64,000 bases of DNA, taken from Marasmius tenuissimus (Eukaryota; Basidiomycota; Agaricomycetes; Agaricales; Marasmiaceae). Below, piece after piece: positions 57,810 through 64,000 of the stretch. Location of the stretch: assembly GCA_029532415.1 (NCBI GenBank), contig JAQOTA010000023.1:62001-126000 (forward strand), in the 5' to 3' direction. Positions within the stretch are counted from its first letter, which is position 1; each line of letters begins with the position of its first letter. The position numbers were made by a program, and so were the translations under genes. The notes under the pieces were generated by a model. That model was given only the letters and a program-made list of their open reading frames with translations, made no database searches and was not told where the DNA came from.

Positions 57810-58276
57810 TCAGATGATGATAGGGACGCATCCAATAGAGATGAGGCCACCTACGAGGAGAAACAGCGAGATACCTTTATCAGTAGTTCGTAGAGAAGAT
57901 AGACAAGTACTTACCGCGGCTGTTGTTCTCGCAATAAACGGTGGTCTTAGAGCTGCAATGAAAGTGATCAGGACGTGGCCAATGACACAAAAGGAGGGGA
58001 GGAGACAAAAACATACCATGCGTCATTGCCTCCACCAACAACGGTAATTGGAGAACAGTTGAGTCCAGCACGGACGCTCAAGTCGGCGAGCATGATGCCC
58101 AATGCACCAAGAACCGCGGCGACAGAGGGGTCCCTCGCCGTCGCGACTGTTTCACAGCATTGAATGCCACTGCTGCAGGTTTCCTCCCCATCACCACCAC
58201 CGCCAGTCCTTTTGACGACGGGTGTGGCAGCCGCAAGGGTAGTCATAGCAGAGAGGGCGAAGAACTTGCTGTACAT
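57810..58276 (-). CDS. class I-like hydrophobin 2 (seven cysteines)
   Basis: Paralogue of hydrophobin 1 with the same three exons. It starts MYSKFFALSAMTTLAAATPV, a signal peptide, then KRTGGGGDGEE. Cysteines are CSSGIQCC, LNCSPITV, DACSKTTVYC and SIGC. The sixth position is again Tyr, and the end is LISIGCVPIII. The start at 58276 is chosen because it opens the signal peptide; the frame stays open upstream but without signal character. It lies in the same orientation as hydrophobin 1. Confidence 0.87.
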
Positions 58277-59000
58277 GTTTAGAGAGGTTGAAGCTTGAAC
58301 AGAACTAGTTATGTGTTCAGGCGAAGATTTGCTCAATGCTGAACCTCCTTTTGTACGATTTTTGTAGCGAAAGCGGACCTGTTTTCCGACTTTCCTCTCC
58401 AGATACCGGAATTTGTTGAACATGACGTCGGTCGACTAGAGGAATTCATCTCAACTGCTGGGAAACGGAGAAAGCAGATCAAAGATGCAACTGACCGGAC
58501 TTTGTGTGGTGGCTTGACAAGTGACGAGGAAAATGTACCCATGAACAACCAGGCACTCATTCGCATCACCGGAAGCTGTACTCGAGTGTCTGTAGGGTAC
58601 CTGTAAGTGACGGTGGTGGCTAACATTCAGAGAACACGGGGTTCAGAGAAGTTTGACCGTCTAGATAAAGTTCACGGAGTCAGAAGGACTCTAAGCTGTT
58701 GTTGGCAAATTTGGAACAGCCGTTATCAGTACCTCGCAGTACCTGTGACGATTGTGTCTGATGAGCTTCAGCGAGTCTTGATTCAACCAATTTTGTGCTC
58801 TTTTGAGAGGTTGGCCAAGGATTACTTCGTTGCCCGAGCCCGAGGGAATTGAGGGAAACAAACGCCAGGCGATTCAGTGCATGCTTTCTGACAAATTTCA
58901 GACTTAGGATGTTCAGGACTGTCTGTATGAATCACAATGAATAACGTCGACGACGTTAGAACGTAATATTTACTCACTTTGCGAGTTCTTCCAAGGTTTT
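58277..59000. other. upstream part of hydrophobin duplication unit 2
   Basis: Aligns in pieces with 56000-56720. The segment near 58960 (AGAACGTAATATTTACTCAC) corresponds to 56690 in unit 1, and similarity fades after that. Confidence 0.6.
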
Positions 59001-59667
59001 GTTCACTGTTCTTTCGATACCGACTACAATGGCCCTTTCACCATTCCTGTCGTGTCCAAAGAAGTCCTTTCAAATTTTCCAGGCAAACTGGTGAATATAT
59101 CAATTGAATATAGAGGACTCGGCGCTCAGAGGTGAGCGAGACATGAGATTTTGGCCGAACCGCGAGGTAGTTATCGGGGTGGCTACAAAATTCCCACGCT
59201 CCCGGGAGACCTTCTCCTCCTCCTCCCCCGCTCCCAACCTTCCACACGCTAGAAAGACGGCCTCGGACGATGTCAACCTCCCATCCCCGTCTCAACTCAG
59301 TGAACTCTCTTTATTGGAACCAGATTCCCACGCTCAAGCGCCTCTCCCCGCAAGCGACACAGGCGCCCCTGCACGCTCCCGCAACCCAATCAAATTCGTT
59401 ACGATGACTCTGAACCTCGTTCAGAACATGAATGTCTCCTTCGGGATGACATATTACAAATTGGAACAATACAGAGAAGTTCTCTATGTCCCCTGTACAA
59501 GGATGACATGCGCCTACAACCCCTCAATCTTTTGATGTTTTGGTGGATGATGTCATCGAAATGCTCAACCCCGGGCCTGACCCGCTCGTGAAAAGTCGCC
59601 GTCATTAACCGCTCTTTACCCTATTATTTAGAAACTCACCGCAGGAACAGCTTGACGCGTAGAAACT
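59001..59667. other. region of uncertain content before the recombinase gene
   Basis: An open frame at 59104-59535 (143 codons) encodes Ser/Pro-rich sequence (FSSSSPAPNLPHARKTASDD) without recognisable domains. It could be a fragment of a gene. Confidence 0.4.
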
Positions 59668-60256
59668 CGAGGTTCGAAAAATTCGTTTTTCTTTCCCTCA
59701 TTCAGTACCTGATTTCAACATATATGGATCTCAAAAGGAACGTGAGATGTCGCCAGTGCTCGAGCAAAATGTGTATCCATTTGCGCACACAATCGATGAC
59801 GTCGAACCAGAGTTGGCGCCCACAGTACAAGCTTCGGAACAAGCGACACGACCACCGACGGGACAGCTGTCATTTCGAAAGCTCGGCAATTGGCGGGTCC
59901 GGTTCTAGCCACCCGATCTCTGCCGCCGGCAAGCAGACGGCTACCCAGAGTCAAATCCATCATACTCTCGGTGAGCTCCATATCCTTTCATTAGCAGACT
60001 CTTATTGCAGCACGAACGGCTTGTCGTGTAGGGATCAAAGGTTCGAGTTTATATTTTCAGTTACCTGATTTTACCATCAATGGATCTCAAATCCCGCCTC
60101 AAGAACGCGAACTGTCGCGCCCAACGACGTTGAGCGCTCAAGCTTGGAAAACATGTATCCGCTTGCGCACACAAACTGATGAGCACGACAATCAAACCAC
60201 GGCCGACGAGGCAGCTGTCATTTCGAAGGCTCGGAAACCGGTGGGTCCTTTTCTTC
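59668..60256 (+). repeat. two copies of an exon-like block upstream of the recombinase gene
   Basis: 59668-59911 and 60038-60256 align over most of their length. Each begins AGGTTCGA and has a CAG acceptor-like site before TACCTGATTT. One frame in copy 1 reads PDFNIYGSQKERE and GQLSFRKLGNWRV. Copy 2 can be read as PDFTINGSQ and RQLSFRRLGNRWV, but only after frame changes. This looks like an old duplicated gene piece, now broken in at least one copy. Confidence 0.55.
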
Positions 60257-60439
60257 CAGTGTTTCTCCAACGCGCTGCCTTCGGCATTCTCATTCTAGAT
60301 CCCCTCAAGTACAAATTTCATTCGAGTTGGCCTACCCGAATAACGTTGTCACAACAGTCACATGACGTGAAAGTAACGTACGCGAACGCGTCCTCGTATA
60401 GGTTCTCGTTCAGCCTTTCTTTCTTCCTTACCACCACCA

Positions 60440-63400
60440 TGAAGCGCGCCCCTCGCGCCCGTCTAACTGACGCCGAGCGTCTGAAAGCTCGCAATATAAC
60501 ACGACAAAAACTTAACGACACCATCAAGGCAATCAATCCTGCCGAAATATTCAAGTCAGTCACCCAGGCCACGATCATCGCCCAGAAGCGGCTCGAAGAT
60601 CGTTACAACGATTACCTCGAGGAATTAGATGCCAACACGTTCCCCGACTTTGACTACGAGTCAGCCTTGACTGTCGGCTCTGGTATCAACGTCCGTAAGT
60701 GGCCTCTACAGGCATGCGCCATTCCTCCAAACTCATTTTTTGTTTTCAGAGTTTTGGTGTGGATTTCTAAGCTATGTGGCCAGCGTTGGGCTGGGTCAGA
60801 TCAATGAATACCCTAGCATACGAACAATGAAGGTTAAAGTAGGCGTATTGCTGGGTCTGGTGAGGGTTTTCCTTCGTTGGAGTGACTGTATGCGTGCTCA
60901 CTCTTGTTTTCCAGATCTCCCGGCGTACCCAACGCAAAATCCCGTCAGAAGTATCCAAGGCTCTGTACCATGTACGTTGTCGCATTGTCTGCAACATCCC
61001 TCCCAATCTGATCTGTCCCTCAAAGTATGTGGACGGCAAACTCAAAGACGAGCTCGGGCTCAAAGACGATGTCCGTGCTAAAAACACGGCGGATTTAGTC
61101 GACGTAGGAGTTCTCCACCGACAAGCATGGGACGTCAGCAACCCCCTAGTATCCAAGAGAATGGTGAGTCGACTTTTTAGGTGACACCGAGATCGCTCTC
61201 TCGAACCGGATACTTTCCAGATCATACAAGTCGCCGCGTTCATAAACATCGCGTGCCGTGCAGGCAGTCGACCCGGCTCCATCGTAGAATCGTCGGCTTA
61301 CAAGGGATCGAATGAGGCTCTTGCCTGGGGAGTGAGTGTTCCATTCTGCTTCCCTATGCGGAAACCGTGACAAAACCTTCGCTTCCAGGATATCAAGTTT
61401 TTCATTGTACCTCCGAAAAGTGCCCTTCCGGATGCCGAAAGCGACGAGTGCATCGGCGATAAGGTCAATAACAACAAGTGGACGACATTGGCTGTGCAAA
61501 TCACCTTTCGTTACCTCAAAGGGATGCGTAATAATAATAGTAAATTGTGCGTTACCTTTTCTACTACCTGCTCAATGACTGACATTGGACATCAATCCAG
61601 TCTCAAGATTCTGTTTGTCCTCGACATGATGAGAACGGGGTTTGCCCATTGCGCCTGCTCCCAGTTGTTATATCTCGGACTCGCCGATAACGTGTTCGAG
61701 CACGTTCGCGATCTCACCGACCTCACCAAGCTCATGCATAACACCAAGACCACCATTTCACTCAAAGTGAAGCAGGCTGCCCGCACTCAGGCTGTCTTGC
61801 GAGCCTTTGCCAATGGCAAGAAAGATCATGTCACAATCTCCGAAACTGAAGCGATGTCATATGACTCGCTCTACTTCCAATTTCAACGACTTGGCTTGAA
61901 AGCTGGCTTCTCGGGTGAGCTCGGCTTCTTCTATTCATGTTTTCCTCTCCACTTACATACGAGATCTAGAAAACATCTCCCTCTACGTCCTCCGCCGGAT
62001 GACACTCAACAACCTCGATGATCGCGCTGATGTGACTGCTGAGCAGACCAAACAGATTATGGGACACCATAACCTCTCTTCCATCAAGGTACACTCGAAC
62101 CGTCACCTACTGCGCCGTAAGCAAAACTGACTCGATTTCTAACAGAGTGTCTATATGTCGGGAATACTCAATGCGAACCTATCGGACGTCGCTGAAGGAC
62201 GACCCCAAGACAAGACCGAGTCCAGGGTGAGTATCTGCCCCACGTCATTCGCCATCTCCTACTGATTCCCTCGCAAGCTATCGGTATGCTATCCAAGGAT
62301 GCCGACAGAGATGCGCCAATTGCATTATCACCTCAAGGAACGCAAACGCTGTATGACATGCCGGAAATCCAAAGATTGAAAGAGGCCCATGACCAGGCAA
62401 GTGATATAATTCGGACTGTGTCATGACTCAGACTGATAAGTACACACAGGCTAAGAACGCTTGTATAGATAATTACGGGTCTGTGAAGAAAGCTCAAGGT
62501 ACGGAAGAGGGCGCAGTCTGCACTGCGACCTGGAAGGAGTTGTCCACCGTCTACAAGCGCGAGGCACGTGTGCTGTTCCGGGAGGAACGAATGAATTATT
62601 TCGAGGACGCCGGACAACGACTGCTTGATCGGATTCAGCGCGAGGAAGCAGCCGCCATTGAGCCGATCACCATCCTACCCGATGACGATGAGACGGACCC
62701 CGACCAACTCGATCTTGGTGCCCGACAGCAAGCATTCGGGGGTATGGACTTCAACAACCCAACTCCCTTTGACATGGCAAAGCTTTGCGAGCCGTACGCT
62801 AGTGACGATGCTCAAGCTAGTACATCCAACACTGCCCTCGCCTCCGAGCCTATTACCCCCATCGTCATCACAACCTGCAAGTTGCCTCGCAACTTCGCAC
62901 CATCGAATTATCCACACGGTTACGAACAACACATCTTTAGCCCTCCACGGGCTTCAGAGAAACAGGACTCCATTGACGCTTGGGCCCAGACAATGTCCAG
63001 CATCGCATCCCTGCCCGAAAAGAAGGTCGTTAAGCGCTTCAACACGGAGATACGCAGTCACCCTGGCGAGGAGCCCACCTCCGATGGGAACTGCCAGTGG
63101 TGCAGTGAATCCTTATTGTGAGATATCACTCTCGCGCTTTCCTTGTTTTCTGGAGCCTATCTGACAGCCTCTATAGGGAGAAGACGTTGTCCGACCAGGC
63201 TCGGCATCTGCACCAATGTGCCACAGAACGTCGTCAAATGGAAGCTGATGAGGCCTACGACAAGAGATTTCTCAACACTGAATTCTGTGGTTTATGTGAC
63301 AGTAAAATGGACCCGAACCTCGATATAAAGGTGAAGCATATCCAGAAATGCGCCAAGGCGCGGGGGCAACCGAAAAGAGTGACTCTTGCGCAATGGACCT

Positions 63401-64000
63401 GCAACTGGAACCTTGACAACAAGAACGGTTGCAATAGTCGCAACAGAGGGCATAATGGATGCTCCGAACTGTACGCCCTGCTCTTCGCTACTTGCTTCTG
63501 TCACTCCCGGGCTGACTGACGTATCCTTCAAGCATGTATACCATGGCGGAGTACTATGCCCACATTGATGATGTGCATGGCGGGCCAGCGATTGGTAAGG
63601 GGTTCATGCACTTTTGCCAAGAATGTCATCACACGTAAGTCGGAGCGAGGTGCATGAACGTCGCAATTCTGATTTATCCCTCCCTCTCCCTTACAGAATC
63701 ATGTCACACCAAGAAGAGGAAGAACATGCCGAATTCCATTTTCGAAGCAAATTTGCACCACTTTGCGGCCAAGGAAATCCATATCTGTACGGTTCCAAAG
63801 TCAACACCGGGCTGGTGGAGAGACCGGGGTACTGCCCTGTCTGTGTATGGGACGAGAGTTTACCTTTTTCTCGAAGGCTACATCAGTCACGTGACTTATC
63901 TCTCTGGTTTTCGTGGCAGGTCACTGATATATCGTTGTAGGTTTTGGGGCAGCAATGGCGCCGAGCAACACTTCACAATCCATCACCTCAAATCCTACAT
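60440..64000 (+). CDS. DUF3435-type tyrosine recombinase with zinc fingers (runs off window)
   Basis: Starts MKRAPRARLTDAERLKARNI; at least ten exons, and the end lies outside the window. The DUF3435 core has AGSRPGSIVESSAYKGSNEA (first catalytic Arg), FVLDMMRTGFAHCACSQLLY, ISLYVLRRMTLNNL (second Arg), TKQIMGHHNLSS (His) and SVYMSG (probable nucleophile Tyr). These give the Arg-His-Arg-Tyr set of tyrosine recombinases. The C-terminal half has several Cys/His pairs in zinc-finger arrangement: CQWCSESL...HLHQC, FCGLCDSKMD...HIQKC, FCQECHHTIMSHQEE and YCPVC. Captains of Starship elements belong to this family and integrate by the same chemistry. A Crypton-type recombinase or a domesticated copy is the alternative. 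No frame breaks seen in the core. Confidence 0.75.

Follow-up and report, generated by a model that had tools for sequence, protein, structure and literature searches.

The window analysed here (64,000 nucleotides, bases 62001-126000 of C35, a contig of 876,095 bp) comes from the 71.06-Mb, 70-contig genome of Marasmius tenuissimus, which is described as a thread blight agent on cacao (PMC11053350). Near its right edge begins element A (window positions 59480-64795), which is very probably a small, cargo-less transposon built around a captain-type DUF3435 recombinase gene alone, integrating site-specifically into U6 small nuclear RNA (snRNA) genes after nucleotide 45 or 46. The gene and both boundaries of the element are observed, as are a pair of U6 sites in which the split falls on one and the same base, two intact U6 genes that serve as empty sites, and an identity between the two inserted elements that is well above that of their flanks. 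All sequence comparisons were made inside this one M. tenuissimus genome, with the intact U6 paralogues taken as the empty sites. The genome DNA search scored the best candidates only, so the copy numbers are lower bounds.

The features of the locus are listed below in window coordinates. All are on the plus strand, and C2 is the contig with the second split U6 gene.

59354-59433, plus: U6 5' flank, promoter-like, with the blocks GCGCCCC and GCAAC common to four U6 loci (51/79 aligned positions identical to C2)
59434-59479, plus: U6 5' half, 46 nt, ending ACAGAGAAG (Rfam RF00026; 46/46 against C2; identical to the intact U6 genes)
59480-64000, on to C35:126795 (window coordinate 64795), plus: DUF3435 element A, 5316 bp in total, delimited by its junctions against intact U6
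59480-59535, plus: left end of the element, a degenerate U6 3' half with a terminator-like CTCAAT-CTTTT end (alignment to U6)
59611-59906, plus: imperfect tandem repeat at the left end of element A, first copy (repeat finding and local alignment)
59975-60254, plus: imperfect tandem repeat, second copy (repeat finding and local alignment)
60439-64000, plus: DUF3435 tyrosine recombinase gene, 16 exons, 1063 aa, the last two exons beyond the window and the stop ending at 64491
61221-62226, plus: exons with the catalytic set R204, Y387, R390 and Y424, and also H414 (motifs and comparison with captain residues, PMC12506042)
62450-64000, plus: exons of the C-terminal region with five C2H2/C2HC-like motifs (aa 696-960), by pattern only
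64796-64869 (C35:126796-126869), plus: U6 3' half after element A (genome search with the U6 3' half)

Both flanks of element A are halves of U6 snRNA by Rfam, and because of this the searches with the left flank (58300-60438) and the right flank (L003:492-6480) both match, besides other places, one spot on C2, in pieces 31 bp apart. L003 is the stretch to the right of the window, in which L003:795 corresponds to C35:126795 and to window coordinate 64795. The U6 gene, of which the stretch ACAGAGAAGATTAGC is a part, is split after nucleotide 45 or 46 (AGAAG|ATTAGC) with a 1-nt ambiguity, a G, and with zero U6 bases lost; the match is exact at C2 and has one mismatch at C35. At C35 the 3' half starts at 64796, from GAATAGCATGG, with one change relative to intact U6 (GATTAG to GAATAG). 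Both halves are near-perfect and were therefore probably interrupted recently. The element itself begins with TTCTCTATG and ends in ...GATGTAT. It contains one gene, a 959-bp leader with the imperfect tandem repeat, a 304-bp tail and zero cargo. An earlier note, made from the sequence alone, had predicted a left boundary between 59.0 and 60.4 kb and a captain at one end reading inward. Both predictions held: the boundary lies at 59480, to one base, and the gene reads inward, with its ATG 959 bp from the left edge and its stop 304 bp before the right edge. The cargo that the same note expected to the right of the window is absent, since the element ends at 64795 and U6 resumes at the next base, and in place of a giant element only the 5316-bp single-gene element was found.

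Four U6 5' halves were found in the genome (20-mer search, up to 2 mismatches), all of them exact; two belong to intact genes and two are split at the same nucleotide. An Rfam search at E<=1 gave no further 5' half, and the 20-mer search would miss more decayed ones. The intact genes, C5:2250483-2250598 and C5:2272777-2272892, score 81.5 bits each and have the uninterrupted order GAGAAGATTAGCATGG. They serve as the empty sites for which the earlier note had looked to other strains, within this genome only. The genome search with the U6 3' half found six places, namely the two intact genes, the right halves at C2 and C35, a displaced half on C5 (R1) and one on C10; a further displaced half on C5 (R2) was missed. 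The two intact genes lie inverted about 22 kb apart, with 5' flanks 71% identical over 3.2 kb, rising to 94% in the final 477 nt with U6 counted in, and their 3' flanks (1500 nt each) show no significant match past the U6 end.

The split U6 on C2 holds a 310-bp element (C2:701229-700920, minus strand) that is the counterpart of the left end of element A; its last bases read ATGT|G, those of the C35 copy ATGTAT|G. Between C2 and C35 the elements are identical at 274/289 aligned positions (95%, with 32 gap columns) and the U6 halves at 46/46 and 74/75 positions. The 5' flanks agree at only 51/79 positions (2 gap columns) and the 3' flanks at 82/114 (37 gap columns), i.e. 65-72% (Fisher P 3e-11 and 2e-9 for element versus flank identity). 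Had a single interrupted locus been duplicated, element and flanks would be equally diverged, so separate insertions fit better, and on these alignments C2 and C35 look like separate insertions at the same base of two U6 loci. Segmental duplication as the sole cause of the two split loci is disfavoured, the element identity being far above that of the flanks.

The recombinase gene starts with an ATG at 60439, one base before the position given in the earlier note, which had correctly described the gene as running out of the window. It has no internal stop, and its stop codon lies 491 bp beyond the window edge. The model contains 15 introns of 53-71 nt, 14 of them GT-AG and one GC-AG (62397-62449); its splice sites were hand-picked among scored candidates, and the donor GTCACG at 63886 is weak. 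The spliced 1063-aa protein matches PF11917 (DUF3435) over aa 184-536 with 111.5 bits (cut-off 25.8, E 6.3e-32). The deposited protein, PM082_020550 (P0001), is a 1048-aa hypothetical protein of M. tenuissimus that is spliced differently around introns 9-10 (window 62227-62450) and reaches only 78 bits. The GC-AG alternative lifts the score from 78 to 111.5 bits, and for this reason the 1063-aa model is favoured and is probably better than P0001.

The identification as a captain-like DUF3435 recombinase in a basidiomycete, already proposed in the earlier note, is borne out by the profile search and the intact 16-exon gene. Pfam lists DUF3435 and one sub-threshold match only for the whole protein, with neither PF00589 nor GCR1_C at E<=1. 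The six-frame search of the genome gave a single PF11917 match, likewise at E<=10, and nothing for PF00589 at E<=0.01. A second copy of the recombinase protein was not found in the genome (best match outside the gene E 1.2). Protein searches, each of which scored only the roughly 8000 candidates with the most words in common with the query, reached P0001 alone, which does not imply the absence of relatives, and the 90% cluster of P0001 has one member. A sequence search of PDB gave 0 matches at E<=10 and the viral-contig scan no match.

The four motifs that the earlier note assigned to the catalytic set are present: SRPGSIVESS (R204), LYVLRRM (R390), IMGHHN (H414) and VYMSG (Y424). In the captain of Sanctuary the corresponding residues are R260, Y424, R427 and Y458, and a tyrosine occupies the place of Cre His289 (PMC12506042). 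The spacings here are 183, 3 and 34 (R204-Y387-R390-Y424) versus 164, 3 and 31 in Sanctuary, and the two-tyrosine spacing is also similar to HhpA. Motif and spacing suggest that Y387 is the position equivalent to Cre His289 in a captain-type R...YxxR...Y set, and that the histidine of IMGHHN, counted by the earlier note, is probably not a member of the tetrad. Y387 precedes R390 where the R-H-R-Y set of Cryptons has a histidine, the position being set by spacing and without a usable structure model, as AlphaFold2 run without an alignment gave a mean pLDDT (predicted local distance difference test) of 35.9 and the model was not used. The C-terminal zinc fingers of the earlier note stand as five C2H2/C2HC-like patterns but not as domains, since Pfam lists none over aa 696-960 at E<=10, in a scan whose filters remove most matches with E higher than roughly 0.1.

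The left end of the element resembles the part of U6 that it displaces. Its first 56 nt align to the U6 3' half with 39/55 identical positions at C35 and 42/55 at C2 (23 gap columns each), and its first 32 nt outscore against U6 all 63,900 windows between 40 and 104 kb, save 12 that lie on U6 itself. The left ends at C2 and C35 have most departures from U6 in common, which places the U6-like stretch within the element; it is possibly an attachment arm. Joined to the U6 5' half, this end forms a chimeric U6 that scores 56.2 bits at C35 and 58.1 at C2 (Rfam threshold 44). Both chimeras are without the GAUUAGC stretch, whose AGC triad we take to have a functional role in U6, and because of this loss they are probably not working U6 genes. 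No significant resemblance was found between the right end and the U6 5' half: background windows scored equally in 5% of cases for C35, 32% for C2, 32% for C10 and 39% for R1 on C5, and local alignments were reached by 65% (C35) and 15% (C2) of shuffles. The RNA folds of intact and chimeric U6 were likewise not beyond shuffles.

A likely mechanism can be outlined. The recombinase would cut the element out, probably as a circle, as is inferred from its family. It would then bind the joined ends of the excised element and a U6 site, exchanging strands near G46; the left end of the element, as an imitation of the right-hand arm of the target in U6, would be recognised by this recombinase too. 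Harm from such a target would be limited while other U6 copies remain, and the near-invariant sequence would offer a lasting target. The recombinase of element A presumably made both insertions and is presumably active. We infer that the element transposes, is polymorphic among strains and forms a circular intermediate.

Several observations weigh against a site-specific captain-only transposon. No terminal inverted repeat (TIR) or direct repeat at the element ends rises above shuffled sequence. The short direct repeats suggested in the earlier note come down to the 1-nt G common to the junctions, with a longer imperfect core possible. When gaps are counted, the blastn identity of the elements falls to 90% over 272 nt, and to 86% over 412 nt including U6 and flank. 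C2 and C35 also have 105-140 nt of 3' flank in common (78% over the first 68 nt) that is absent from the intact genes, so a relationship between the two target loci is possible. The genome searches gave no second copy of full length, and the C2 insertion consists of the left end with at most a few right-end bases (ATGT). Starship calls below 15 kb have been filtered out as captain-gene indels (PMC12153272; the size limit also in PMC12134995), which disfavours small captain elements as a rule. Compared with Starships, the missing TIRs, the single shared G, the U6 snRNA target and the Marasmius host all set element A apart.

A possible, still tentative, extension is compatible with a captain-only transposon at U6. 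It holds that U6 is the attachment site for a family of units, every one of which carries a U6 3' half of its own and restores U6; the units would accumulate in tandem, the captain element being the newest layer at its locus. Downstream of the intact gene C5:2272777-2272892 (stretch L040, in which L040:2074-4276 corresponds to C5:2270574-2272776) there are two displaced U6 3' halves, R1 and R2. The DNA that comes after R1 (C5:2270772-2270832, E 2.7e-12) resembles the flank at C35 and C2, while R2 runs on into sequence that matches the flank of the other U6 gene on C5 (71.6% over 81 nt, E 2.9e-8). A short-chain dehydrogenase/reductase (SDR) gene (PF00106) lies between the intact U6 and R1. One U6 5' half on C5 is thereby followed by three 3' halves (a perfect one with the SDR gene, R1 and R2), each with different downstream DNA. 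Taken together, the U6 3' half and SDR stretch match, with 79% identity over 1577 nt, a tandem array of SDR genes on C10 (C10:5668566-5675998), which contains a U6 3' half and no 5' half within the 7.4 kb examined. The left end of element A, itself a relic of a U6 3' half, fits the same scheme. The SDR stretch also contains a repeat of about 200 bp (C5:2270865-2271066, L040:2365-2566) with at least 39 other copies at 86-97% identity, a candidate short interspersed element or miniature inverted-repeat transposable element.

Against accretion, R2 is weak on its own (nhmmer E 0.15-0.27) and was not among the places found with the U6 3' half, and R1 and C10 lack sharp breakpoints, their starts falling at U6 50-59 and 37-55 depending on the method. 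Insertion of element A does not yield a normal U6, the DNA to the right of the C35 and C2 sites showed no older 3' half that had been displaced, and ordinary duplication could spread U6 fragments as well. Bacterial integrative elements at tRNA genes combine a tyrosine recombinase, a small RNA gene target and an end that resembles the 3' half of the gene. Element A is like them in that one end holds a 3' part of its target gene, and it differs in its eukaryotic host, in the degeneracy of that 3' half and in leaving normal U6 unrestored. The fuller proposal is on the doubtful side: U6 genes might act as a chromosomal attachment site like bacterial tRNA genes, where a captain-only DUF3435 transposon and a dehydrogenase-gene unit would integrate after ACAGAGAAG, could rebuild a working U6 and would stack with the newest unit beside the 5' half.

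It is improbable that element A is a Crypton, a small tyrosine-recombinase DNA transposon unrelated to captains. Its size, single gene, lack of TIRs and short non-autonomous relative all match descriptions of Cryptons, which are likewise small one-gene tyrosine-recombinase elements with known short non-autonomous relatives (PMC3212892). However, the fungal Cryptons (CryptonF) described there have GCR1_C and mostly 6-bp terminal repeats, whereas element A has DUF3435 instead of PF00589, lacks both GCR1_C and terminal direct repeats of 5-6 bp, sits in U6 and, by spacing, would have Y387 in place of the histidine of R-H-R-Y.

Still less probable is an origin without mobility, in which segmental duplication produced the U6 pseudogenes and the DUF3435 gene is a stranded or domesticated solo copy. 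The 3' flank that C2 and C35 have in part in common would agree with it; DUF3435 genes standing alone are said to outnumber captains within elements (PMC12134995), and small differences bearing captains are said to be indels (PMC12153272). It is contradicted by an element identity of 95% at aligned positions against 65-72% in the flanks, by the nearly perfect and probably recently interrupted U6 halves, and by a precise junction at which no U6 base was lost.

A Starship with its cargo to the right of the window is very improbable. Starships are described as having a DUF3435 captain at the 5' end, a length of roughly 15-700 kb and cargo (PMC12134995, PMC12153272). Element A agrees with them in its DUF3435 captain (111.5 bits against 25.8), in the 5'-end position and inward reading of the gene, and in its small RNA gene target, as some Starships use 5S rDNA (PMC12153272). 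The captain of Sanctuary lies about 350 bp in from the element end, and according to the same source no work had shown a Starship circular intermediate (PMC12506042). Basidiomycete cases are on record from Tremella fuciformis, with eight Starships of 42-606 kb (PMC13066641). However, element A has 5316 bp and one gene, versus at least 15 kb and cargo genes in a Starship. Among curated Starships 19/20 have direct repeats of 2-12 bp and 18/20 have TIRs, a customary rather than a defining trait (PMC12153272), and direct repeats above 6 bp generally accompany 5S rDNA targets (PMC12134995, PMC12153272); element A has a direct repeat of only 1 nt and no TIR above shuffles. U6 resumes at 64796, 5.3 kb past the left end, with a tRNA synthetase gene some 9 kb beyond. 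A giant cargo element is rejected on the position of the right end, 64795. Element A is neither a Starship, being small and without cargo, TIR or a direct repeat longer than 1 nt, nor a typical Crypton.

Spliceosomal introns are known from the U6 genes of some fungi, and the split lies next to ACAGAGA, presumably near the U6 intron sites of those other fungi, but the idea that the inserts are U6 introns has a negligible probability and was rejected, because neither possible junction of the C35 or C2 insert shows GT-AG (the two registers read GTTTCC...TATGT or TTTCC...ATGTG for one insert and GTTCTC...TGTAT or TTCTC...GTATG for the other) and one insert contains a 16-exon recombinase gene.

Another group of elements is known to use the same gene. 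Dada-U6 elements of animals also insert in U6 snRNA genes (PMC8869645). They differ in having a DDD/E transposase and a target-site duplication of 6-7 bp instead of a DUF3435 recombinase, and the hosts of Dada given in that paper are animals only. Their site, CTTGCGCAG, lies by our reading about 14-22 nt downstream of the element A site on the U6 strand. In the open-access journal literature searched, no paper was found that joins a Starship captain with snRNA or DUF3435 with Agaricomycetes, and among the matches listed for captain, tyrosine recombinase and Starship papers none mentions Agaricomycetes.

The surroundings of element A contain further genes and repeats. To the right lies an unnamed 535-aa open reading frame, for which an F-box identity was dropped since it has no Pfam match, and about 9 kb on is the class I tRNA synthetase gene, of the W/Y family. 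To the right of the split U6, C35:128267-130574 (L003:2267-4574) shares 99% identity with C18:371900-374208 and, along most of the stretch, with C59:144739-146839. Its ends of about 370 bp are repeated widely at 72-85%, and it is probably a recent non-autonomous transposon. A hydrophobin gene (PF01185; window 57968-58435, minus strand) lies to the left of element A, and the DNA beside it (58415-59056) resembles several places on C7:2730992-2739258, on C11 and at C35:118125-118454. Two sub-threshold Rfam matches each fall within 5 kb of a split U6 gene: SNORD14 at L003:5165-5382 (40.9 bits versus 64) and Fungi_U3 at L038:9235-9448 (37.5 versus 95).

With element A, a mushroom-forming fungus offers a DUF3435 recombinase whose target and two element ends are defined to one base; among the reports cited here, the one on basidiomycete Starships deals with Tremella (PMC13066641). 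U6 is a ready-made site for a recombination assay, and with its 5.3 kb and its 310-bp relative element A lends itself to tests, for example for a circular intermediate, far more readily than a Starship of 100 kb. As an essential gene with a long, near-invariant sequence, U6 is a plausible safe harbour for such an element while other copies remain. Element A shows what a captain without cargo may look like; elements this small were dropped from at least one large survey (PMC12153272), and a cargo-less captain of this kind bears on the origin of the giant Starships from small recombinase elements.

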